64,000 bases of DNA from Leuconostocaceae bacterium ESL0958 (GTDB lineage: Bacteria > Bacillota > Bacilli > Lactobacillales > Lactobacillaceae): positions 23,168 to 87,167 of the forward strand of contig JAQTHT010000003.1 in assembly GCA_029433265.1 (NCBI GenBank). Direction: 5' to 3'. The position numbers were made by a program, and so were the translations under genes. The notes under the pieces are model-generated. The model was not told where the DNA came from. It saw only the letters and a program-made list of their open reading frames with translations, and searched no databases. Of the stretch, positions 5,375 through 19,177 are shown piece by piece. How positions within the stretch are numbered: the stretch's first letter is position 1; the number at the start of each line of letters is the position of its first letter.

Positions 5375-5445
5375 GCAAGCGCTCCTCACAGCAGGATTTT
5401 CGCTGGCAGAAAAGACTGCGGCCAGCAAAGGGAAAGTTATTTCTT

Positions 5446-5474
5446 ATTATAGGGGAAAGGTAATAGCGCAACAA
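5446..5474 (-). promoter_or_regulatory. Sigma-A promoter for rel
   Basis: On the minus strand TTGTTG (5469-5474) and a perfect TATAAT (5446-5451) are 17 bases apart. Predicted transcription starts near 5439, about 65 bases before the rel start codon. The element lies in the divergent gap with the exporter gene. Confidence 0.7.
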
Positions 5475-5563
5475 GCTTTTTCCCCCGCTCTTTCGTGCAA
5501 AAAAAAGAAAAAAGCAGTAGAATGTTGCAATAGTAGTTTTAATTTTCGGAGGTCAACAAACAT

Positions 5564-6784
5564 ATGAATATTTTGAAGCAAGACGGTGAAGGCGATAATT
5601 GGCGCCGGAACGTTTGGGTTGTTTGGCTCGCCGTCTTTATGGCGGGCGTGGCCTTTTCCGAAGTCATGCCCTTCCTGTCCTTGTATATCGACACACTGGG
5701 CCATTTTAGCCGCTCAGAATTGACCTTTTATTCAGGTGCTGCTTTTGCCATCACCTTCTTGGTGTCAGCGATTGTTTCCCCCTTCTGGGGTAAACTAGCA
5801 GACCTGAAGGGCCGGAAAATCATGATGCTCCGAGCCGCCCTCGGCTTGGCTATCGTCATGTTTCTGATTGGTTACTGTCAAAACGTTTGGCAGCTGCTCT
5901 TTTTACGGGCGGTTTCTGGGGCACTGGGCGGCTTCATTTCCAATGCCAACGCCTTGATTGCTACCCAGACACCCAAGGAAAATGTCGGTCGGGCCCTCGG
6001 CATTGTCGTGACTGGCTTTACGGGGGGGTCGCTAGTCGGTCCCCTTTTCGGGGGGACACTCGCTTCCTTTACGTCTTACCGGACTGTCTTTCAAATCACC
6101 GGCTTGATTTTACTGGTCGTATTTGTCTTTATTTACTTTTTCATTACTGAAAAAAAGGTAGCTGCACCCGATCCCGACCAGGAGAAGGCACCCGGCCACA
6201 GCTGGAAAACGATGGCCAATAAGAAGTTGCTCATCAGCCTATTCGTGACCACCATGCTGGTCCAGGCCGTCAATATGTCCATCAATCCCATCGTCTCCCT
6301 TTTCGTGAAGGAAGTCCTTCATAACCGAGGCAATGTGACCCTAATTGCTGGGATTGTAGCAGCCATGCCAGGGCTGGCAACCATGCTCTTTGCGCCTAGC
6401 TTTGGCCGTTTAGGCGATCGCTTCGGCACCAGTAAAATGATTTCGATTGGTTTCGCACTGGCCATCCTCGCCTTTGTGCCAACCGCTTTTGTCACCACTG
6501 TGCCCCTGTTGATTTTCTTCCGCTTCGCCATTGGGGTGGCCGATGCTACCCTTTTGCCGGCCATCCAAACACTGCTCTCCCGCCATGCCGGAGAAGGTAT
6601 GGTTTCCCGGGTATTCTCCTATAACCAGTCCTTTCAATCCATGGGCTCTGTGATTGGCCCCATGCTGGGGACGCTGGTTGCCACACTCTTTGATTACCGG
6701 GCTATCTTTATTTGCTCAGCCCTCATCATGGCCATCAACGGCTCACTCTTTTATTTCAACGTTCACCGAAAAATCAAACAGTGA
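5564..6784 (+). CDS. MFS multidrug efflux transporter, PmrA-like
   Basis: This 406-residue polytopic protein has about 12 hydrophobic segments and the DHA1-family signature between TM2 and TM3, GKLADLKGRKIMMLRAA. A second-half copy of that loop reads GRLGDRFGTSKM. The TM5 antiporter motif C region reads GFTGGSLVGPLFGG. The opening, with SEVMPFLSLYI in TM1, resembles the pneumococcal efflux pump PmrA and its lactic relatives. It probably exports drugs by proton antiport; the substrate cannot be read from sequence. GGAGGT stands upstream of the ATG, and the gene ends at a bidirectional terminator. Confidence 0.85.
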   Translation: MNILKQDGEGDNWRRNVWVVWLAVFMAGVAFSEVMPFLSLYIDTLGHFSRSELTFYSGAAFAITFLVSAIVSPFWGKLADLKGRKIMMLRAALGLAIVMFLIGYCQNVWQLLFLRAVSGALGGFISNANALIATQTPKENVGRALGIVVTGFTGGSLVGPLFGGTLASFTSYRTVFQITGLILLVVFVFIYFFITEKKVAAPDPDQEKAPGHSWKTMANKKLLISLFVTTMLVQAVNMSINPIVSLFVKEVLHNRGNVTLIAGIVAAMPGLATMLFAPSFGRLGDRFGTSKMISIGFALAILAFVPTAFVTTVPLLIFFRFAIGVADATLLPAIQTLLSRHAGEGMVSRVFSYNQSFQSMGSVIGPMLGTLVATLFDYRAIFICSALIMAINGSLFYFNVHRKIKQ

Positions 6785-7111: not shown

Positions 7112-9631
7112 CTAGTCCTCCTGTTCGAAGGCCACTAAACGCGGCCCCATCTCAAAGCGGGTCGCATCAATCACCTGGTCGGGTTGCAAATGCAAGGCAA
7201 AGTCCGAGCGACCGGCTACCATAGCCAAAGGCTTTTGTGGCATCGTTTGGGCTGCCAATAGCTGTTCTTGATCAGCTGGTGATAGTTGCCCCACTAGCGC
7301 CCGAATCAAATAGCGGACCAGCGGTAGGCCCAGCACCTTAGACAGGTAGGCTAAATGGCCGTAAGGCATCGGCCGAAGCCAGGCGTCCGTTGACAGATCT
7401 GGCATAGGGACCTGCTTCTGCCAAGCAAAGACTGGCCGCCGCCAGATAATTTGATAAAAACCAGGTTGCTGGGGCTGTAAATCAGCCAAAAAGTCCGCTG
7501 GAATGGTGTTCTTTAAGAGCCGCAGCTCTCCCTGTCTGTGCTGTGTCAGCGCCAACGGATAGGTTCGCTGTCCATCGTAAAAGAAACTCAAGTTAAATTC
7601 AGATTGATTGCTATCCGGTCCGTCTGGTTGATGCTTTTCCTTGGGCAGAACAAAGACCGTTTGGCCCAGTTTTTGCAGCGCATCAATCAATTTACGACGG
7701 TTTCCCGGCACCAAAATGGCCTGAGGGGCTTCCTGGTCAACAACAGCCATCACATCAGAAGTTTCCAATGGTTCCAAATACTGTTTGTCCGATAAATGCG
7801 GTAACAGCGAGGCATCCGCTGCCGAGTTATTGAGCACAATTGTCTGATAGTTCAACCGGCGGAGTTCAGCTAGCGCGACCGTGAGGACATAGCCGGCCGC
7901 CGCACCGTCCCCCATTCGAAAGGCGCCAGCACCCACAATCAATACCGACTGCTGCCCTAATTGGCTCGATTCATTTTCCGACTCAAAGGTTGCATAGTAC
8001 TGATGGGCATGTTCTGGAAATTCCCCTGCCGTTGGTTCCAAGGCCTTGTAGGTTGGCAAAATGTCCGCCAACTGTCCCTGGGCCCGAATTGTTTGAAAAT
8101 CTCGCTGCCAGAAGCGCGCAATCAAGCCGTCCGACAGGCCGGACTCTTTGCCGATTTGCAACATCTGCTGATTACCAGGGGCCGCTTCAATTTTTTGTTG
8201 GATGGCAATCAGACGCTGTAATTGATAAAAGTAAAATTCATCAATGTCCGTTAATTCGGATAGTTCATCCACCTCATAGCCCCGCCGCAGCGCTTCAATT
8301 AGCAGTAAGACCCGGTTATCCTGGGGATGAATCAACTGCTGAATCAGTTCGTCATCCGTCAGTCGGTCCATGAATTCCGGTGAAAAAGAACGGTTATTAA
8401 AATGGGCCGCCCGAATGGCCTTTTCCAAGGCCTCGATAAAGGTCCGGCCAAAGCCCAAAGCCGAGCCGACCGACTTTTGGATAGACCCTAGCTGTCGATT
8501 GACCGTTACACCAGCTGCCGCCAAATCCCCAAAAGAGAAGATGGGCAGTTTGACCGCAATATGATCCATCACGGGTTCCATCATCGCTAGTTTTTGATGG
8601 TAGGACTGAGGTAAAGTGACCGCGGTAATGGGCAAGCCCAGTGCCAGTTGCACGCCGACCAGCATGGCCGGATAGCCCGTTACCAGCGCTAAGCGGCTGG
8701 CCACCAAGTCTAAGTAAGGGGCCACCTTGATAATGTAGAGCGCATCCGTTTTTTCGTCAAAGGCAAACTGGACGTGTAAGAAGCCCTGCACGCCCAGCAC
8801 TTCGGCAGCGAGAAAGGCCTGGCTGCGCATTTCTTCCAAGACCCGGTCCGCCACCGTCAGGACGGGGGCAACGGACAGTGAATCCGAACTGTGGATGCCA
8901 ATGGGGTCCATGTCTTCGCTAGCCCCAATCTGCAAAGTATTGCCCCGTTGATCACGGGCGACCAATAAAGAAACCTCTTTCATGCCATTAATGGCCCGGG
9001 AAATCAGGACATCGTTGGTTAGCGACTGGGCCCGGACTTGTTCGATAGCTTGGTCAAAGTCATCCAGGCGGTCCACGATTCGCTGTGTATTGCCCACTTT
9101 AGGATGGTGGGCACGAATGACGAGTGGCAAGCCATAATCCCGCAAAAATTGATTAGCCTCGGCCGAAGAGCTCGCAGCTTCTGCCTCCAAAATGGGTAGT
9201 TCAGCTAGCGCCAACCGTTCCATCAGGGCCCGGCCGTCCCGGACATCCTGCACCGTTTGGACCGGTAAGCCCAGGGTTTCCGGTTGGAAGCCATTCCGTT
9301 CGTCCTGCCAATCGGACAGTACTTGCCCCCAAAGGCGGACGGCCCGCCGACCGCCAAAGACAGGGAGCACCGCCTCAATCCCTTCTTTTTGAATCAACGA
9401 CTGGACGGCGGTCACCGTCAGGGGTGCAATCACCGTCTCAGCTACTGTTGATTCCAAGGAAAGGGCGTAAGGATTATCGTCCAAGACATAGGGCTGGTAG
9501 CCCATCTTTTTCAACAGCGGAATCACCTGATAAATGGCGACATCGGTTTCCCCCTGGAGGCCAAAATCAGTTTCCCCGCCCCCAATCAAAAGAATTTTCT
9601 TGGCATTGGTTTTAGTTGGATTCTTGTACAT
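7112..9631 (-). CDS. carB: Short, active-site-degenerate carbamoyl-phosphate synthase large-subunit homologue
   Basis: At 839 residues this is over 200 shorter than ordinary CarB (about 1060). The N-terminal half is recognisable: a pre-ATP-grasp Rossmann part (KILLIGGGETDFG), an ATP-grasp domain (SEDMDPIGIHSSDSLSVAP, near 235), VKIPIF-type linker and IGRTF-like GFGRTFIEALEKAIRA, then the oligomerisation region to about 545. Residues 562-660 resemble only the Rossmann start of the second half (VLIVGAGAFRMGDGAAAGY). No second ATP-grasp domain follows; the last ~180 residues are unfamiliar. At the metal-binding site the usual E-M-N-P-R reads K-V-A-P-Y (near 300), and the glycine-rich ATP loop is replaced by RAHHPKVGNTQR near 175. 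The start overlaps carA by 20 bases, implying coupled translation. A normal synthetase activity is unlikely. Confidence 0.88.
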   Translation of the reverse strand: MYKNPTKTNAKKILLIGGGETDFGLQGETDVAIYQVIPLLKKMGYQPYVLDDNPYALSLESTVAETVIAPLTVTAVQSLIQKEGIEAVLPVFGGRRAVRLWGQVLSDWQDERNGFQPETLGLPVQTVQDVRDGRALMERLALAELPILEAEAASSSAEANQFLRDYGLPLVIRAHHPKVGNTQRIVDRLDDFDQAIEQVRAQSLTNDVLISRAINGMKEVSLLVARDQRGNTLQIGASEDMDPIGIHSSDSLSVAPVLTVADRVLEEMRSQAFLAAEVLGVQGFLHVQFAFDEKTDALYIIKVAPYLDLVASRLALVTGYPAMLVGVQLALGLPITAVTLPQSYHQKLAMMEPVMDHIAVKLPIFSFGDLAAAGVTVNRQLGSIQKSVGSALGFGRTFIEALEKAIRAAHFNNRSFSPEFMDRLTDDELIQQLIHPQDNRVLLLIEALRRGYEVDELSELTDIDEFYFYQLQRLIAIQQKIEAAPGNQQMLQIGKESGLSDGLIARFWQRDFQTIRAQGQLADILPTYKALEPTAGEFPEHAHQYYATFESENESSQLGQQSVLIVGAGAFRMGDGAAAGYVLTVALAELRRLNYQTIVLNNSAADASLLPHLSDKQYLEPLETSDVMAVVDQEAPQAILVPGNRRKLIDALQKLGQTVFVLPKEKHQPDGPDSNQSEFNLSFFYDGQRTYPLALTQHRQGELRLLKNTIPADFLADLQPQQPGFYQIIWRRPVFAWQKQVPMPDLSTDAWLRPMPYGHLAYLSKVLGLPLVRYLIRALVGQLSPADQEQLLAAQTMPQKPLAMVAGRSDFALHLQPDQVIDATRFEMGPRLVAFEQED

Positions 9632-10691
9632 AGTCCGCTACCGTTTCAAAAAAGTCTGTAATGATGACGCTGGCTTCGAGTGGTCCTGGTGCCCCGTCTG
9701 GGAAAAACTGCACAGAAAAAGCCGGAAAGTCCCGGTGGCGCAGGCCCTGAATGGAATCATCAACCAGATCACGATGAGTGGCGAAGAGCTTGTTGGCGTT
9801 CAAGGAATGCCAGTCCACGACATAACCCCGGCCCTGCCGGGCATAGAAAATCTGCTGAGAAATAATTTCCTGAATGGGATGGTTCATCCCATGGTATTCG
9901 GCTGGCAGTGCCTGAAGTGAAGCGCCGTTGGCAAGGGCAAATAATTCGTGGCCCAAGCCCACACCAAGCAGCGGTGCCTTGGTCTGCAAAACACGAATCA
10001 ACGTCAGCACTGATTCCGGTAGATCCTCCGGGTTACCAGGGCCAGTCGACAAAATAATGCCATCTGGATCCAAAGTCAATACCTCATCCACCGTGGTCGA
10101 ATAGGGTAAGACGGTCACATTGGCATCGTACTCCCCCAGAATCCGCAGAATTCCGTGCTTCAAGCCAAAGTCAATGACGATAATGTGAAAGCCATGGCCA
10201 GGATTGGCATAAGCCTTGGGAGTAGCCGTATTTTGTACCTGCTTATTGGTCAGCACCGTGGCATTTAACTGATCGAAGGCATGGTCGTCCACCACGTCAA
10301 CAATCGTCGCCTTCTGTGGGCCCGTTTCCCGTAAATGGCGAATGAGTTGGCGCGTATCCACCTGACAAATGCCGGGCACATTATGCTGCTTTAAAAAACG
10401 ATCCAAGTTCATCCGCCGCTGTCGGTTCGTGGAAACTTCAGCTAAATCATGCACAATCACCCCGCGCACTTTGGGCGCAATCGACTCATAGGCTTCTGCA
10501 TGAATCCCATCCGCCCCCACTACGGGCATGGCAAAAACAATCATTTGGCCGTCATAAATCGGATTTGTAATGGTTTCCTGATAGCCAACCATGGCGGTAT
10601 CAAAAATAATTTCGCCAAAGGTGGTTGCTGGTGAACCGAAGCCCTCGCCAGCAAAAACTGTTCCGTCTTCTAAAATGAGATGTCGTGTCAT
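9612..10691 (-). CDS. carA: Carbamoyl-phosphate synthase small-subunit homologue lacking the glutaminase triad
   Basis: The length (359 residues) and N-terminal domain are normal for CarA (LEDGTVFAGEGFGSP, VGYQETITNP, QVDTRQLIRHLRETG). CarA normally hydrolyses glutamine and channels ammonia to CarB. The class I glutaminase domain is intact in outline, but the nucleophile motif G-I-C-L-G-H-Q reads GVGLGHE near residue 245, so Cys is Gly. The His/Glu motif Q-Y-H-P-E reads QFFPDGAPGP near 329, so His is Phe and Glu is Asp. Both changes were checked in the bases (GGC and TTT codons). The frame is unbroken, GGGAGA precedes the ATG, and carB overlaps its end. Glutaminase activity should be absent. 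Confidence 0.9.
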   Translation of the reverse strand: MTRHLILEDGTVFAGEGFGSPATTFGEIIFDTAMVGYQETITNPIYDGQMIVFAMPVVGADGIHAEAYESIAPKVRGVIVHDLAEVSTNRQRRMNLDRFLKQHNVPGICQVDTRQLIRHLRETGPQKATIVDVVDDHAFDQLNATVLTNKQVQNTATPKAYANPGHGFHIIVIDFGLKHGILRILGEYDANVTVLPYSTTVDEVLTLDPDGIILSTGPGNPEDLPESVLTLIRVLQTKAPLLGVGLGHELFALANGASLQALPAEYHGMNHPIQEIISQQIFYARQGRGYVVDWHSLNANKLFATHRDLVDDSIQGLRHRDFPAFSVQFFPDGAPGPLEASVIITDFFETVADYVQESN

Positions 10692-10733
10692 AGTTCTCCC
10701 GCCTAGTCGCCCCGTCGTCTGGCCATCATTGCC

Positions 10734-11261
10734 TTAGTTCGTAATTTCTACGGCATCCCGGCCATCGACTTCTTCTACTAGGACCCGAATTTTTTCAGTC
10801 TGCGCCGTTGGAATATTTTTCCCAACAAAATCAGCCCGAATTGGTAGTTCCCGGTGGCCTCGGTCCACGAGTACCGCCAGAGAAATCGCTTGCGGCCGGC
10901 CAATTTGAATTAAGGCGTCCAAGGCGGCCCGGGTCGTCCGACCCGTGTAGAGCACATCATCCACCAAAACAATCTTCTGATCAATAATGTTGACCGTCTC
11001 ATCTGGATTAAGACCAAAATTATCTTCCTCATGCAGACGGTCATCCCGGTAATTGGTGATATCAATGGCCATCACCGGAATCTGAACCTGTTCTAATTGT
11101 TCCAAACGGTTGGCAATGCGTTGAGCTAAGAACTCGCCCCGGGTCTTGACCCCGACCAAAATCAAATCCTGGCCGCCCTTATTGCGTTCCAAGATTTCAT
11201 AGGTAATTCGTGTTAAGGCCCGTTGCATGGCGGCCTGATCCAATACGACTTTTTCTGCCAT
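10734..11261 (-). CDS. pyrR: PyrR: pyr operon regulator / uracil phosphoribosyltransferase
   Basis: The 175-residue product is PyrR, an RNA-binding attenuator of pyrimidine genes that senses UMP/PRPP and has weak uracil phosphoribosyltransferase activity. The PRPP loop [17 protein letters not shown] (near residue 100) is intact, as are [15 protein letters not shown] and DITNYRDD. An in-frame ATG lies five codons upstream, but the 11261 ATG is preferred because AAGGAG sits just before it. Only 37 bases separate it from rluD, so no attenuator can fit upstream here. It is followed by the altered carA/carB pair; other pyr biosynthesis genes are not in the window. Confidence 0.93.
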
Positions 11262-11298
11262 TTTTCTCTCCTTCATTGTGACGGCTACAACTAGGTCC

Positions 11299-12210
11299 CT
11301 ACTGGGCTGCTAATAGGTCGAGCACCCTTTGAAATACTGCCGGTAACGGTGCGTGAAAGGTCAGCTCTTGCCCCGTTTTTGGCTGGGTTAACGTTAGACT
11401 TTCCGCATGCAAGAGCTGCCCCGGCAAGTTAATCTGACCAATCTTTTTTTGCCTTCCGTAGACGGGATCCCCGACCACCGGGTGCCCGATATAGGCTAAA
11501 TGCACACGAATTTGATGCGTACGGCCAGTCTCTAACTGTAATTCTAGTAAGGTATAGCCAGTAAAGCGTTCCTTGACCTGAAAATGAGTCACGGCCTGCC
11601 GGCCACCAACTTGAACCGCCTGTTTCTTGCGGTCCTTGGGATGACGACCAAGGGGCGCATCAATCGTCCCCTCATCTTCTGCAAACTCTCCGGCGACCAG
11701 GGCCAGATAGTGCCGCCCCGTTTTATGGGCCTTTAGGTCCTGGGCCAGTGCTTGGTGGGCTTGGTCATTTTTGGCCACCATTAGCAAACCGGACGTGTCC
11801 CGATCAATCCGATGAACGATCCCCGGTCGAAAAGTGCCGTTAATCGTTGAAAGCGGGGCGTGATAAAGAAGGGCGTTGACCAGAGTCCCCTGCGCATGCC
11901 CCGGTGCCGGGTGGACGACCATCCCCTGCGCTTTGTTCACCACGATGAGATCATCGTCTTCATAGACAATGTCTAGCGGGATGTCTTCTGCTTGCAAGTC
12001 CGTTGTACTTGGCTCTGGAATAGTCAGTTCAATGACGTCCCCTGGTGCCACCTGGTAAGACCGTTTGACGACCTGTCCATTAACCAGCACCTGCCCGCCT
12101 TGAATTAGTTTGGTCAATGCTGAACGGGAGCTGGCAAAGGATTCGTTGGCCAAAACAGCATCCAAGCGGCCCTGTTCATCCTGAATGGTTTTCTGAAAAT
12201 GTTGACTCAT
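11299..12210 (-). CDS. rluD: RluD-family large-subunit rRNA pseudouridine synthase
   Basis: The 303-residue protein has an N-terminal S4 RNA-binding domain (about 1-80, [18 protein letters not shown]) and an RluA-type pseudouridine synthase domain. The catalytic aspartate is in [14 protein letters not shown] near residue 133. The C-terminal motif [21 protein letters not shown] is typical. It isomerises uridines in 23S rRNA. Its ATG overlaps the stop of the preceding ebsA gene (ATGA), and pyrR follows, a linkage common in lactic bacteria (usually with lspA upstream, absent here). Confidence 0.93.
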
Positions 12211-12676: not shown

Positions 12677-13066
12677 ATGCTAACACTTGCCATCGATGCT
12701 GCTTTTCAAGCGCCCACCGGGCGAACCAGCGCCGGTTACGTTGCCCACGAAGCAGGTCAGCCACAAGCACAGAAAAAAACAAGGCTGGCCAATGCGCAAG
12801 ATAATCACGAAGCTGAATTTGCCGCCCTCCTATGGGCAATCGGTGACTTGCAGCCACGAATAGCAAGGTCTCCTATTTTAAAAATTCAATCCGATTCCAA
12901 ACTTTTGATTGATGCCTTGGAAAAAAATTATGCAAAACATTACCAGGCAGCCGTTGACCAAATCATCCAGGCGCTGCCGGCTCAAATAACTATCATCCTC
13001 TCCTGGGTGCCAGAAAAGGATAACCGGGGCCCCCACCAGTTAGCGTTACAGGCCTTAGCCAAATAA
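12677..13066 (+). CDS. RNase HI-family protein
   Basis: This compact 129-residue protein has the RNase H fold pattern: LAIDAAF with Asp7, NHEAEFAALLWAI with Glu47, and KIQSDSKLLIDAL with Asp73, followed by the typical late segment SWVPEKDNRGPHQLALQAL where HP..AD or similar normally supplies the fourth acidic residue. It may remove RNA from RNA:DNA hybrids, like the YpdQ/YpeP-type RNase HI relatives of Firmicutes. The fourth acidic residue is uncertain, so activity is not assured. AAAGGGGG precedes the ATG; the gene is divergent from ebsA. Confidence 0.75.
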   Translation: MLTLAIDAAFQAPTGRTSAGYVAHEAGQPQAQKKTRLANAQDNHEAEFAALLWAIGDLQPRIARSPILKIQSDSKLLIDALEKNYAKHYQAAVDQIIQALPAQITIILSWVPEKDNRGPHQLALQALAK

Positions 13067-13100
13067 AAAACAAGGAAGAAAATTTTCTTCCTTGTTTTTT
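13065..13100. terminator. Bidirectional intrinsic terminator
   Basis: An extended palindrome (AACAAGGAAGA and its complement around an AAAATTTT centre) with terminal A/T runs lies between the converging RNase H-like and GNAT genes and contains the GNAT stop. Confidence 0.85.
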
Positions 13101-13644
13101 AGTCTTCATCTGAAATTAACAATTGATAAGCCCAGCGAGCAGTGGAAATATTTTCCCCTTCCTGCATATGAACCGTGCCCCGCTTTTCAAAGCCGTTCTT
13201 GGCAATCACGCTCTGCATTGGCAAATTGCCAGGATGCGTATCAATCCGGAAGTCACGGGCACCCTGCGCATAGAAGTAAGAAATTAGCGCCGTAATAAAA
13301 CGGGGCGTCAAACGCTGGCCGCGGAACTTGTCCGACATTGCCACACGGTGCAAAGAGGCGTAATCATGGCCTTCCTTCAACCAGGTCCCATCTTCCAAGG
13401 CCGTATAAATAGGGTCTTCCCCTTCAAAGGCCGCTGCATAACCAGCAACTTCATGGTCCACCATCAAGACAAAGGCGTGGTGGGCATCTAAATCAGCCTG
13501 GACAGCATCCCGATTGGGATAGTCAGCCTGCCACTGATCAATTCCCTGTTCCTTCAAAAATCCCTTGGCCGTCTGCAAAATCGTCACGATTTCGTCAATA
13601 TCGCGGGCTTTTGCCCGACGCATAAATACTGCTGGCATACACAT
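13099..13644 (-). CDS. GNAT-family N-acetyltransferase
   Basis: The protein of about 181 residues has the GNAT fold: beta-strand VLMVDHEVAGYAAAFEG, the acetyl-CoA loop region SLHRVAMSDKFRGQRLTPRF (R-G-Q near the pyrophosphate-binding turn), and RIDTHPGNLPMQSVIAKNGF. The acceptor substrate is unknown. The start is unusual: AAAGGAG (13674-13680) is 29 bases from the chosen ATG at 13644, with a perfect 7-bp hairpin between them that would restore a spacing of about six. ATGs at 13638 and 13623 are alternatives. A GTG at 13674 overlaps the Shine-Dalgarno and is unlikely. Confidence 0.85.
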   Translation of the reverse strand: MCMPAVFMRRAKARDIDEIVTILQTAKGFLKEQGIDQWQADYPNRDAVQADLDAHHAFVLMVDHEVAGYAAAFEGEDPIYTALEDGTWLKEGHDYASLHRVAMSDKFRGQRLTPRFITALISYFYAQGARDFRIDTHPGNLPMQSVIAKNGFEKRGTVHMQEGENISTARWAYQLLISDED

Positions 13645-13849: not shown

Positions 13850-16800
13850 TTACTTGGTCCACTTGGACTTTACTTGCGCCCAAGCAGCCAAAACCATTGA
13901 CAATGAAGCAAAGGCGAATAAGTAAGCCGACTGAAGCTGCCTGTTAGTCTTTGCCGTATTTGGTAGGGCCGTCGCTTGCTGGTCTTGCAGCAAATCCGCT
14001 GCTGCCTGCGACTGAGCCGGCCAGAGAATACGATGGGTTGGCGCATTGACAGCAACCGCAGCTGTTGAAACTGGCGCTCCCTGATCGCCAGCCGCCGTCG
14101 CGCTATCCAACGCTGTATTAACGACGGTCTCTTCTCCTTGATTAGCAGTTGCTACTTGCTTGCCAGCGCTCTGATTGTCAGTTGCTGCGGCTTGTTCGGC
14201 TGCTTGACTGACTCCCTTCTCATCTGATTCGGCTGGATTGCTGTCAGCCGCGTTAGCGGATCCGTCAGCCTTAGCCTGGTCTGCTTCGGGATCTGTAGTC
14301 GCGCCGTCCTTCGACTGGCCATCAGCCTTAGCCTGATCTGCAGCTGGAACTGTGGCTGCGCCATCTGCCGGCTGACCATTGTCATCTGACTGGTCTGTAT
14401 TTGAATCCGTCGCTGCGCCATCCTTTGGCTGCACATCAGTGCCAGCCTTATCGGCATTATCCTGCTGTCGCTGGCCAATTGCTTGTAACTGATGCTGCAA
14501 ATCCTGGAACAGTTGCCGTAAATCACGGTTCGTTTCAGCCACCGCAACCTTATCTAGGGCAGCTTGAACGGCATCCGCTACTGCCTTCAAATGCTGATCC
14601 AGTGCGGCAGGGTCTGCCGCCCAATCGTGACGCAGGCTGTCTTCCTTAGCGTCTTGTAAAGCCTTGATTAAATCAGTCACTAACTTTCTTTGGGCATCCG
14701 TTGGTACTTGATAATCCGGCTGTAGCGCTGGTGCTGCGACTGTCTGAATTGCTTCGATAGCCTTGCGTAAGGCATCCGCTAATTCGTCATTGGTATTCGC
14801 TGCTTGAATGGCCTTCAAAGCATCTTCCGTACGCTTGGCCAATTCGGCTAGTTGATCAGCCAAAGACTGGGCCTCTACATGGTCAATTTGGCGGAAGTCA
14901 TTGCCCTTATTGTCCGCTAACGCCCGAATTGTGTCTTCTGCCGCTGCTTTCTTAGCTGCTGGGACTGCTGCTGCCCCAGGGAGTTGCTTGGGATTAGCTA
15001 AGTCATTAATGTCTGAGAGCGTCTGGTCAAGGACCTGCTTCAAGTCTGCCTGGTTATTCGCCGCCGCCACTGCCTGAACGCCTGCCGCGACAATGTCGTC
15101 TAATTGTCGATTTTGTTCAGCCAGAGAAGCTGGGTCAACATTTGGTAACTGGGCCAACTGCCGCTTCTTCGCTGCTTGGGCCTGGTGAATTTGATCAAAG
15201 GCAGCCGCGCGGTCAGCAGCGGAGGGCCTGTCAGCGCTTTTGTCTGCTGGTGCTGGCAAAGTTGATGGCACCGCAACGGCCGCAATGTCTTGCAGGCCCT
15301 GTTCAACGGCGTCTGCCAGTTCTTGGTTAGTGGCCGCTTGCGCAACGGACCTTAATGCCTTTTGCAGAGCGATTTCCACCTGATCTCGCTGCCGCTGCAG
15401 GGACTGTGGGTCCACCTGATCAACGGCTGCCATGTCCGCTTTACGAGCATCGGCCTGTTCCGTCAAGGCATCACTTGCCTGTTGCCGTTGGTGAGCAGTA
15501 GGTGCTTGGTAGGCGGCTAACAAATCCGGGCTAGCAACTGCCTGCAAATCTGACAAAGCCTGCTGCAAAATTGGTTGAATGGCAGCGGCGTCTGTCGTTT
15601 TTTGAATCCGAGCAACGGCCTGCTTTGCAATGGCTGTCAGCTGCTCGCTTTGCGCCGCCAAGGAGCTTGGATCCACGTGGGCAATCCCTTGGAATTGTCC
15701 CTGCTTAGCCTTGGCAAAGGAAGTCACCTCTTGGCTCGCGAGCTCTTGTAGGGCCCGCAGATTATCTGCTTCAGATAGTCCCGGTGCCGTAGCAGCTAGC
15801 TTTGGTAAGGCCACTGCTTGAATGGCACCCAGTCCCCGCTTCAAAGCTGCGTCCAACTCCGCCTTTACCTTGGCCTTTTCCAGCTGTTGCTTAGCCTTGG
15901 CAAGCACTTGCTTTAATTCCTTGCTTTGGGCAGCTAAACTAGCAGGGTCGACTTGGTCTAGCTGGTCAAAGGCTTTTTGCCGCCAGACAGCAGCCTGGTC
16001 TAACATTTCATTGGCCAGTGCGCGGTCAGCCGCAGTGACCGGCCGGTACTGGTCTGCCACATTTGGTGCAGGAACCGCAGCAATTGCAGTCAATGCATTT
16101 TCTTTGGCCGCTGCCAGTGCACCATTGGTTGCAGCTGCTTCAATCGCCCGCTGTCCATTGGCTAAAGCCTGTGCTACTTGGCCTTTTTGAGCCAGCAGTT
16201 CTTGAGGATCAACATGATCAATCGCTTCGAAGGTCTGGTTGCGAGCTTTTGCAGCTGCAGCAATGGCTGCCTGTGCAGCCGCTTTCTTCACTGCATCCGC
16301 AGGCTGGTAATCGAAAAGCAGCGCTGGTGCCGGCACATTCTGAATGGCCTGTAGGCCATCAGCCAAGGCTTGTTGCAAAGCCACTGCATCTTTTGCAGCA
16401 GCCATGTTTTTGAGTCCAGTCGCAACGGCATCATCCACAGCTCGTTGGCTATCTGCCAGGGCCTGTGGGTCCACCCCAGCCAAATGGGCAAAAGCATCTT
16501 TTTGGTCTTGGCCAGCCTGTTTGAGGATTTCTTGACTCAGTGAACTTTGCGCCTGATCCAAATGTAGCGCAGCCAACTGGTTCAAGTATTTCTGCAACAG
16601 TTGGTGTACGGTTCCTTCGTATTGGGCTTGTTCAATAGCTTTTTCCCCTTGACGCTTAATGGTCGCCACTTGCCCAATCAAGGTCTTTTGCGCAGCATCA
16701 GCTAACTGTTGGTCTTCCTGAATGCTATCAATCACTTGCCTTGCTTTTGCTTCCAAAGCCTGCTTGGCCAGTGTTTTCGCTGCAGCCAACCGAGCCGCTG

Positions 16801-19177
16801 CTAAATCGTGCCCTTGTCCAGCCCGACTTTCGACTTCTTGGATATCCGCAATGGTCTGCCCTTCCACATCGGCGACCTGATTGACTGTGCCAGCCATGGT
16901 CAATTGACTGTTGGCACTGGCCACCAAGTTCGTTACTTCTTGGAAGTAACTAGCCAGTAGTGCATCATCCAACTTTGGTTGCAGGCACTTGATGACCACC
17001 TTCGTATGCAACGCTTGGGCTGCGATTGCTTGGGAAGCGGCCTGCTTCATTTGATTCAAAGCGTTTTGTGCCGGATCCGCATTGGCCGACCGCTTCTGCA
17101 GTACGCGCAGTTGCGTGCCCCGCAACGGAAGAACCTTGCCATTTTGCAGGGTCATCGTGCCGGTGTAGTAGACCGTAAACGGCCGATCATAGATTTCAAA
17201 GGCAGCTGGATCCGTAATTTGTCCTTGCGGGTCAAGTGATTTCTTAATGGTAACCTGCTTCACTAGTTGGTCACTGACCTGTTCTGATCCATAGACCCAG
17301 TAGTGTTTGTCAAAGTAATCCACCACATGATCAAAACGATAAGGATTATCCATGAACTTTTCGTCGACCAAGGTCACCATGCGATGGTCCAAATCAGATC
17401 CTGGCAGTCCGTCCGTCATGCCTGCCCATTCCGCCCATTGCGGACCATTCGTCGTTACCTTTTGACTATTCAACTGACCAGCTGTATCTCTAGGCGAAAT
17501 ATAGGCGCGCCAGGTTGGTACGGAGGAAAACGGTAAGGGATTCGCCTTTAGCTTGTCCTTCTTAATCGCAATGTCTCGACCCAGGTCTCCTTGGCCCCCA
17601 TAGTCCTTCTCTTCCTTGGACACCATGGTTTCAGCATCTAAGGCATACATGGTCGTGGCCACTGCGCCAGTGGGGTCCGGCGGCAGCTGCCCTCTGGTCA
17701 GTACCTTATGAGGACTGTCATCCGCATAAGGGGCCAGTTCTTGATATTGTTTGGAATCAGCACCAAAACGTTCCTTCAATTCTGATTGTGACCAATTCCC
17801 GGTATAGCGGTCTAAGTCAAAATTCAGGTAGCCATAGGCACCGCCCTTGATGTTGCCGCCCCAAGACAAAAGGTTCATAAAGAGTTTGGTGATCAGCACC
17901 TTGGCTTGCAAGAAGGCACCGTTGTGGTGCTTCAGATTATCACCACGGACTAGCAAATAAAGGCCGCGTGGATCCTTCGCCACGTTTGTTTTAATGTCCT
18001 TCGGGTAGAGGGTAATGGGATAAAAAGGGCTATCCAAACCAGCTAAGGAATAGTGGGTCCCATGTTCCTTGTTCACGGCATCAATAGCCCGCCCCAGGAT
18101 GGCATCCCCGATGGAACCGCCATAACCTGAAATAGGCAATCCCAGCGCGGTCGAGATGATGGTCGTTAATCCTGGTACTTGCCGGATCAATCGATCCAAG
18201 CCCAAGGTGACGTTCAAGTCCATCTGACTACCAAAGTGGGTATTCTTGAGATTTAACGTTTTAACAAATTCTTCTGGATTAACTCCTTCCGGCATCTCCA
18301 TCCGCAAATAAATGCCATATTGTCCCTGGTCATAGTTCTGATTCAGTTTATTTTGAACCAAGCCCAAGGAGAGTACGTTCGTGATGGAAGCAACCGTACT
18401 TTTCACCGCTTCATAGTAGTAAGCGGGATTGAGCATCGAATGGTTATTCGAAATAATATTCGCTGAAAAAGGGAAACCCCCGCCGTAAGAAAGCGTATTC
18501 TGATCCGGGTAATAGTTCGTTTCAGAACCTTTGACCTGACCACCATAGATTTTCTTCAGGCTGTCTAAGAGCTTTCCAATGGCTGATTCATCGGTAGTAA
18601 GCCGCATCACCGAAACGTTGGCATAGTCATTGGTTACGCCCGACAAGTAACTGTACTTTTCTTCTCCGAAGTCCATCTTGCCCGGGCGGTCGACATATTG
18701 TTTGCCATCATCTAACTGCGCATCGCCCGGATGGTCCGTATTCGCTGGGTAGCCGCCGACTGACTTCGTGATGGCTTCGTAAGCAGTTCCCTCCCGTGAA
18801 TAAATGCCGTCTGGACTAATTGCCTTGCGAACCGGCACCATTGGTTCCGCTGGCGCTACTGTTTCCTGCACCGGGTCGTTACTGCTATCCTGATCTTTTG
18901 TGACGGATGATGCTGTCTGCGCTTGGCTCGTCGTATCAACTGGTGGCTTCACCAGCGCCGCCGCTGCCTGTTCTTCGCTGGCGTTGGGGATGGCTGTCCC
19001 ATTTGTTGGATGAGTTTGATCCTGTTGTTGACCGGTCTGCGCCGTCTCGTCCGCAGCCGCTGCTGTCGGCCGTTCTGCCAAGAGCAGTCCTGCTGAAAGA
19101 AAGGCAGAAGAAGCCAATAGCCACGTTTTATTTTTTGAAATTTTAAACGAATTGGCCAAAAAAGTTTTGTTATCCAT
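13850..19177 (-). CDS. Large repeat-containing cell-wall-anchored surface protein (1775 aa)
   Basis: The N-terminus (FKISKNKTWLLASSAFLSAG, residues 11-30) resembles the KxYKxGKxW-type long signal peptides of lactic surface proteins, with cleavage likely near AAAADE. A T/Q/D-rich linker leads to a large unrecognised domain (about 130-700), probably the adhesive part. A helical A/Q-rich region follows with about eight repeats of ~90 residues (about 895-1590), each holding a VDPxSLAxQ-like motif and A-ValProxPxL-like linkers. Next is a low-complexity DGAATD/DQAKADG spacer. The C-terminus is LPNTA near 1739, then a hydrophobic segment and KSKWTK, a sortase sorting signal with Ala in place of Gly. 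AAAGGGAA precedes the ATG. The ligand is unknown; no sortase gene is in the window. Confidence 0.88.
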   Translation of the reverse strand: MDNKTFLANSFKISKNKTWLLASSAFLSAGLLLAERPTAAAADETAQTGQQQDQTHPTNGTAIPNASEEQAAAALVKPPVDTTSQAQTASSVTKDQDSSNDPVQETVAPAEPMVPVRKAISPDGIYSREGTAYEAITKSVGGYPANTDHPGDAQLDDGKQYVDRPGKMDFGEEKYSYLSGVTNDYANVSVMRLTTDESAIGKLLDSLKKIYGGQVKGSETNYYPDQNTLSYGGGFPFSANIISNNHSMLNPAYYYEAVKSTVASITNVLSLGLVQNKLNQNYDQGQYGIYLRMEMPEGVNPEEFVKTLNLKNTHFGSQMDLNVTLGLDRLIRQVPGLTTIISTALGLPISGYGGSIGDAILGRAIDAVNKEHGTHYSLAGLDSPFYPITLYPKDIKTNVAKDPRGLYLLVRGDNLKHHNGAFLQAKVLITKLFMNLLSWGGNIKGGAYGYLNFDLDRYTGNWSQSELKERFGADSKQYQELAPYADDSPHKVLTRGQLPPDPTGAVATTMYALDAETMVSKEEKDYGGQGDLGRDIAIKKDKLKANPLPFSSVPTWRAYISPRDTAGQLNSQKVTTNGPQWAEWAGMTDGLPGSDLDHRMVTLVDEKFMDNPYRFDHVVDYFDKHYWVYGSEQVSDQLVKQVTIKKSLDPQGQITDPAAFEIYDRPFTVYYTGTMTLQNGKVLPLRGTQLRVLQKRSANADPAQNALNQMKQAASQAIAAQALHTKVVIKCLQPKLDDALLASYFQEVTNLVASANSQLTMAGTVNQVADVEGQTIADIQEVESRAGQGHDLAAARLAAAKTLAKQALEAKARQVIDSIQEDQQLADAAQKTLIGQVATIKRQGEKAIEQAQYEGTVHQLLQKYLNQLAALHLDQAQSSLSQEILKQAGQDQKDAFAHLAGVDPQALADSQRAVDDAVATGLKNMAAAKDAVALQQALADGLQAIQNVPAPALLFDYQPADAVKKAAAQAAIAAAAKARNQTFEAIDHVDPQELLAQKGQVAQALANGQRAIEAAATNGALAAAKENALTAIAAVPAPNVADQYRPVTAADRALANEMLDQAAVWRQKAFDQLDQVDPASLAAQSKELKQVLAKAKQQLEKAKVKAELDAALKRGLGAIQAVALPKLAATAPGLSEADNLRALQELASQEVTSFAKAKQGQFQGIAHVDPSSLAAQSEQLTAIAKQAVARIQKTTDAAAIQPILQQALSDLQAVASPDLLAAYQAPTAHQRQQASDALTEQADARKADMAAVDQVDPQSLQRQRDQVEIALQKALRSVAQAATNQELADAVEQGLQDIAAVAVPSTLPAPADKSADRPSAADRAAAFDQIHQAQAAKKRQLAQLPNVDPASLAEQNRQLDDIVAAGVQAVAAANNQADLKQVLDQTLSDINDLANPKQLPGAAAVPAAKKAAAEDTIRALADNKGNDFRQIDHVEAQSLADQLAELAKRTEDALKAIQAANTNDELADALRKAIEAIQTVAAPALQPDYQVPTDAQRKLVTDLIKALQDAKEDSLRHDWAADPAALDQHLKAVADAVQAALDKVAVAETNRDLRQLFQDLQHQLQAIGQRQQDNADKAGTDVQPKDGAATDSNTDQSDDNGQPADGAATVPAADQAKADGQSKDGATTDPEADQAKADGSANAADSNPAESDEKGVSQAAEQAAATDNQSAGKQVATANQGEETVVNTALDSATAAGDQGAPVSTAAVAVNAPTHRILWPAQSQAAADLLQDQQATALPNTAKTNRQLQSAYLFAFASLSMVLAAWAQVKSKWTK

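Follow-up and report, generated by a model that had tools for sequence, protein, structure and literature searches.

A stretch of 64,000 nucleotides from Leuconostocaceae bacterium ESL0958 (the window; contig JAQTHT010000003.1, positions 23,168 to 87,167) carries a gene pair for the small and the large subunit of carbamoyl-phosphate synthase (CPS), here termed carA* and carB*, whose products are a conserved pseudo-CPS, a conclusion that is well supported. Both genes lie on the minus strand behind pyrR. The open reading frame of carA* (positions 9612..10691) encodes a pseudo small subunit of 359 amino acids and that of carB* (7112..9631) a pseudo large subunit of 839 amino acids; Pfam and NCBIfam models assign the former to the CPS small subunit and the latter to the CPS large-subunit domains. 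The end of carA* and the start of carB* share 20 bases (9612..9631). A preliminary description, made from the letters of the window alone, had reported two intact, overlapping frames behind pyrR that lack catalytic residues. This layout is borne out by the coordinates of the frames, and the residue changes which it named are correct on alignment. Its interpretation, a new non-catalytic role as a sensor of UMP, arginine or bicarbonate or as a partner of PyrR, is supported only in part.

An alignment with the genome's own canonical CarA places GVGLGHE of CarA* opposite GICLGHQ, QGRGY opposite QNHGY and QFFPDG opposite QFHPDA. The Cys-His-Glu triad of the glutaminase is accordingly lost, with Gly in the column of the nucleophilic Cys and Phe in the column of the His. 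The idea that Phe and Asp replace His and Glu holds for the His, but not for the third position, at which Asp is found in canonical rows too. The catalytic Cys column contains Gly in all 79 rows of dead CarA, at least three of which duplicate a genome that was fetched twice, whereas all ten canonical rows contain Cys. The His is likewise gone in 79 of 79 dead rows, and GHQ has become GHE in 69 of them.

For CarB*, the absence of the site-1 ligands and of the glycine loop as well as the reduced second half at a total of 839 amino acids could be confirmed. KVAPY stands in place of EVNPR, the E-x-N-P-R ligands for metal and carboxyphosphate, and no GGSGGG loop is present. The second ATP-grasp domain is incomplete, as the alignment gap spans its ATP-binding lobe. 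The CPS large-subunit fold as such is kept: the predicted structure, a model from 87 sequences which replaced a first one (24 sequences, pLDDT 70.9), matches E. coli residues 1-925. The structural alignment stops there, so that the C-terminal allosteric (MGS) domain is missing. No Pfam match to PF02142 (MGS) was obtained for CarB* either, although this absence is weak evidence on its own because the live CarB of the same genome also lacks such a match. Among the CarB* rows, from which the picks at loci L006 and L027 (surface proteins) had been removed, the metal-binding Glu is exchanged for Lys, or for Arg in Weissella (g18; genera of the sample carry such running labels). The site-1 Asn position is mostly occupied by Ser, Ala, Thr or Asn and the Arg position by Tyr, Phe or Leu; further, divergent rows are more variable at these positions. 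Most rows retain the GIH--DS loop, whereas g26, g28 and some distant rows deviate from this. Locus L028, an unverified record which has shorter carA and carB frames, was excluded from all alignments, and near-duplicates were excluded from the trees. The short form is not the only one, as the dead CarB is still of full length (1054-1057 amino acids) with both sites altered in g17 and in the four g37 genomes read, and has only 659 amino acids in g9.

Given these lost residues and domains, no synthesis of carbamoyl phosphate is expected from CarA*-CarB*, in line with the preliminary description. A changed enzyme, which would carry out some other ATP- or carbamate-linked reaction, is an improbable alternative. 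Several site-1 residues are retained, among them the equivalents of the His243 loop and of Arg169 in the first ATP-grasp domain. In addition, a CPS that runs on ammonia (CPS-I) does not necessarily fail when only the Cys of the small subunit is missing. Against this stand the Lys or Arg at the position of the metal-binding Glu, the missing glycine loop and, in the short forms, a second ATP-grasp domain that is incomplete.

The catalytic losses are common to relatives, and the pair is under purifying selection. In a CarA tree with 53 dead and nine canonical rows, all dead rows fall on one side of a single branch with a support of 100. A second tree (62 dead and eight canonical rows) shows the same split with a support of 93. 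A single origin of dead CarA is thus not rejected, although the deepest part of the tree is unsure because of long branches. The ratio of nonsynonymous to synonymous substitution rates (dN/dS, Nei-Gojobori) was calculated for 22 pairs of loci and gave a value for 16 of them in carA* and for 12 in carB*, the others being saturated. For the seven pairs with a dS below 1 the ratio ranged from 0.008 to 0.027 for carA*, from 0.020 to 0.052 for carB* and from 0.010 to 0.105 for the neighbouring rluD, which indicates purifying selection rather than drift. A decaying relic or an assembly artefact is therefore barely credible: residues are indeed lost and CarB varies in length from 659 to more than 1050 amino acids, but the CarB* tail matches listed contain no stop codon, the Gly is found in 79 of 79 rows and dN/dS is far below 1. 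On these grounds sequencing error and decay were both rejected.

The preliminary description had left open whether relatives share this form, and had held that substitutions unique to this assembly would speak for a sequencing error. Dead CarA is in fact present in at least one genome of 28 of the 40 sampled genera. A search with CarA* in a species-level collection returned 33 loci, of which 27 belong to Fructobacillus, Convivina, Leuconostoc and one further Lactobacillaceae genome, three to Apilactobacillus and three to Loigolactobacillus; the latter three turned out to be canonical. A protein search with CarB*, for which 120 of 262 matches were listed, found full-length CarB* of about 800-870 amino acids, with Leuconostoc, Fructobacillus, Eupransor, Periweissella, Weissella, Nicoliella, Secundilactobacillus and Lentilactobacillus among the genera listed, and a second search added Lactiplantibacillus and Levilactobacillus. 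With a profile of the tail of CarB*, matches were obtained in 195 of 397 Lactobacillaceae genomes, spread over 19 of the 40 genera; this is a lower bound, as the profile misses divergent pairs such as those of Lactiplantibacillus and Lactobacillus. In an order-wide sample the profile matched in 23 of 345 genomes, all of them Lactobacillaceae. Reading the neighbours of pyrR and rluD added g38, g3, g4, g8, g9, g17, g35, g37 and g40; the evidence points to g38 being Lactiplantibacillus and g37 being Lactobacillus in the strict sense, and a close match to named proteins suggests that g15 is Secundilactobacillus. Dead CarA was found in 12 of the 28 tail-negative genomes whose rluD locus was inspected. 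The dead pair was not found in g10, g11, g12, g14, g21, g22, g25, g27, g29, g30, g31 and g33, for each of which one to three genomes were inspected over about 1.5 kb past rluD, so that a pair farther off would escape.

Besides the dead pair, the genome of ESL0958 (1.30 Mb on 25 contigs) has a single further carA and a single further carB, the latter of full length. This canonical pair, the second and normal carAB whose search had been proposed, is located on contig C20 between pyrB-pyrC and pyrD-pyrF-pyrE and has intact catalytic motifs. The assumption that carA*B* is the only CPS copy of the genome was thereby rejected. The live CPS of ESL0958 is fast-evolving: in the CarA tree the canonical copy has a branch length of 1.74, the dead one of 0.12. 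The live CarB (locus L042, positions 7662-10793) comprises 1044 amino acids, yet has no Pfam match to the MGS domain.

It is very improbable that the pair joins the live CPS in mixed complexes and serves it as a regulator or structural component. Such a role would agree with the CPS large-subunit fold of CarB* and with the oligomers which CPS forms. However, a search for canonical CarB gave no match at E<=1e-30 in 47 of the 195 genomes with a tail match, among them 22 of the 24 in g15. The pair is therefore not simply an accessory of the live enzyme, and partnership with it was rejected as a general role. The absence of canonical CarB was read from a table of matching genomes (second half of CarB), three of the 47 genomes are less than 90 percent complete, and G020, G270 and G294, which match only weakly (3e-39 to 2e-45), were scored as positive for canonical CarB.

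The role which appears most likely, and which is nevertheless advanced tentatively and with somewhat less than even confidence, is that of a putative ligand-sensing regulatory complex which works together with the neighbouring PyrR. Three lines suggest this: the genes adjoin each other in most of the loci that were read, both persist where the PyrR targets that can be seen are salvage genes, and PyrR2 has an inorganic-carbon phenotype in the one genus studied. The pyrR gene of the window (10734..11276, minus strand) scores above the cut-off of the NCBIfam PyrR models and, aligned with PyrR of the operon type, retains the motifs which we take to mark the phosphoribosyl pyrophosphate (PRPP) site and the RNA-binding region. 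It is the only PyrR found in the genome; the other match is a frame resembling hypoxanthine phosphoribosyltransferase with 23 percent identity. Upstream of it lies a gene for a pseudouridine synthase of the RluA family (11299..12210, minus strand), which scores above the cut-off of TIGR00005 and below that of the RluD equivalog and is here called rluD. The CarB* tail fetched 35 loci; in 30 of them pyrR immediately precedes carA*, and 29 have the complete order rluD-pyrR-carA*-carB*. In the Apilactobacillus micheneri locus L030, the region 5434-5961 between rluD and carA* contains no intact pyrR frame, while the sister loci L031 and L032 have one.

In Lactiplantibacillus two PyrR copies are present in all 21 g38 genomes of the census. 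In the three genomes read, the first copy heads a canonical pyr operon and the second is part of rluD-pyrR-carA*-carB*, with a CarB* of 853-854 amino acids and the same dead motifs. PMC3582564 reports that in L. plantarum PyrR1 responds to pyrimidine and PyrR2 to inorganic carbon, and a table in PMC7911632 gives pyrR1 as lp_2704 and pyrR2 as lp_1782. The second PyrR of the three Lactiplantibacillus genomes offers a parallel to this inorganic-carbon regulation.

Several observations weigh against such a partnership. The link between L. plantarum PyrR2 and this locus is made through the genus Lactiplantibacillus only. The five tail-fetched loci without pyrR belong to g2 and g5, and in the loci read of g2, g5, g17 and g37 (Lactobacillus) pyrR does not adjoin carA*. 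The rluD-like gene is the more constant neighbour of the pair. PyrR was not detected in four genomes with the dead pair, namely G017 (87 percent complete), G242, G298 and G330. These four genomes led to the rejection of a strict PyrR dependence; the pair is therefore not simply a PyrR accessory and PyrR is not an obligatory partner. A Fisher test based on the statement that none of the 195 genomes lacks PyrR is misleading, as the tail profile misses divergent pairs, and was not relied on. The adjacency of pyrR and carA* could also be inherited from an old pyr operon site, as the B. subtilis pyr operon likewise has a rluD-like gene followed by pyrR at its site. Finally, no PyrR attenuator (RF00515) was found at the gathering threshold at the pyrR-carA*B* locus in the window and 15 other loci, a search of the window at a looser threshold was likewise negative, and searches of the ESL0958 genome and of three further Fructobacillus (g1) genomes gave no RF00515 site either.

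It is rather unlikely, but a serious alternative, that the pseudo-CPS is independent of PyrR, acting for instance with the RluD-like enzyme or in central nitrogen or carbon sensing, with pyrR as a neighbour by history. The presence of rluD upstream in 34 of the 35 tail-fetched loci, compared to the 30 with pyrR, and the persistence of the pair in the near-complete genomes G242, G298 and G330 favor this idea. It is opposed by the pyrR-carA* adjacency in most genera read and by the second Lactiplantibacillus PyrR being retained exactly at this locus. The proposal that the pair is a partner of PyrR is supported by synteny in most loci read and by the Lactiplantibacillus locus, but not as an obligatory relationship. 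As a separate observation, PyrR was undetected in seven of seven g29 genomes, five of which have a canonical CarB, and no dead pair was found at rluD in the three g29 genomes inspected (G029, G065 and G095; loci L135, L136 and L138). A joint loss of PyrR and the dead pair is possible in this genus.

RNA targets for PyrR could be identified elsewhere. Of 40 chosen genomes, 34 contain RF00515 sites, and in 23 of these the curated cut-off was exceeded; G060 and G144 were among those without a site. The sites precede pyrB in Leuconostoc, Convivina and others and a uracil permease gene in several genera. In g15, most members of which are without canonical CarB, a site precedes a gene resembling nucleoside deoxyribosyltransferase. 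At the g15 loci L124 and L127 a PyrR-type leader is located ahead of a nucleoside 2-deoxyribosyltransferase-like gene, and we know of no description of such a gene as a PyrR salvage target. The leader of the live pyrB of ESL0958 (L042, 4160-4352) has an unusually stable predicted fold (z -3.0), with a terminator at its end. It includes a hairpin with TCCGTGAG, which resembles a degenerate PyrR loop and also departs from it; an Rfam match was not obtained.

If the pair does act as a ligand-sensing complex with PyrR, CarA* and CarB* would still assemble as a CPS-like heterodimer, and the residual first ATP-grasp site would bind a CPS substrate, for example bicarbonate or a nucleotide, without turnover. 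Occupancy of this site may alter the activity or amount of PyrR, which in turn would change the attenuation of genes for pyrimidine biosynthesis and salvage. The reported PyrR2-dependent response of L. plantarum to inorganic carbon could have its basis here, and in lineages without PyrR the pair probably has another activity as well. Bicarbonate is a natural candidate for the ligand because the first ATP-grasp domain of CPS is the bicarbonate site. PyrR-CarA*-CarB* would then be a putative family-wide bicarbonate-sensing regulator, in which a retired CPS reads its former substrate and signals to PyrR. The genomes without PyrR are a real difficulty, which is why the PyrR-linked role is put forward with reserve and its bicarbonate version is considered doubtful. 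Because the short form has no allosteric domain, it is excluded that it senses UMP or ornithine by this canonical route.

Compared with E. coli CarAB (1a9x; PyrAaAb), the pair shares the small-subunit family, the large-subunit fold up to residue 925 and the order carA-carB, but lost the Cys and His of the triad, the site-1 metal ligands, the glycine loop, the full second ATP-grasp domain and the allosteric domain. Human CPS1 (5dou), an ammonia-dependent CPS-I of the same fold as CarB*, is also without the glutaminase Cys, but unlike CarA*B* it retains both synthetase sites and the allosteric domain. Likeness to the PyrR attenuator system of the B. subtilis type (RF00515) is given by the PyrR motifs and by the RF00515 sites which, in many pair-bearing genomes, lie ahead of pyrB or of salvage genes. 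In B. subtilis, however, PyrR heads an operon of live enzymes, whereas in ESL0958 its gene stands ahead of the dead pair, away from the live operon.

A description of a dead CPS pair was not found in the open literature, and neither was a report of a role for a carA*B* pair adjoining L. plantarum pyrR2; the key L. plantarum papers, including the original ones on PyrR2, lie outside the coverage of this literature. To our knowledge, no sensor has been identified for the CO2 response of L. plantarum. Its operon genes carry the names Aa1 and Ab1, which suggest that annotators were aware of a second pair. A review (PMC6245113) states that L. plantarum has two CPSases. The carB of the Leuconostoc multilocus sequence typing scheme spans 3180 bases according to the coordinates given in PMC4063691 and is, because of this span, probably the canonical gene.

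Apart from this locus, the window contains a strong inverted repeat at 13064-13101 between the ends of two convergent genes, which gives chance Rfam matches on both strands and is probably a two-way terminator. Very long repetitive proteins, adhesin-like by appearance, are encoded on the minus strand at 13850-19177 of the window (1775 amino acids) and at 13264-17979 of L042 (1571 amino acids). PMC12863079 deals with large surface proteins of fructophilic lactic acid bacteria.

As a consequence, many genes of lactic acid bacteria which are named carbamoyl-phosphate synthase are not expected to make carbamoyl phosphate, and where the dead pair is the sole pair, prototrophy for arginine and pyrimidine would be over-predicted. 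The well-studied food and probiotic family Lactobacillaceae thus contains an old pseudoenzyme pair which is positionally tied to the regulator reported for the CO2 response of L. plantarum. If the bicarbonate reading is true, this pair would be the missing sensor for CO2-dependent control of pyrimidine and arginine metabolism in L. plantarum and its relatives.

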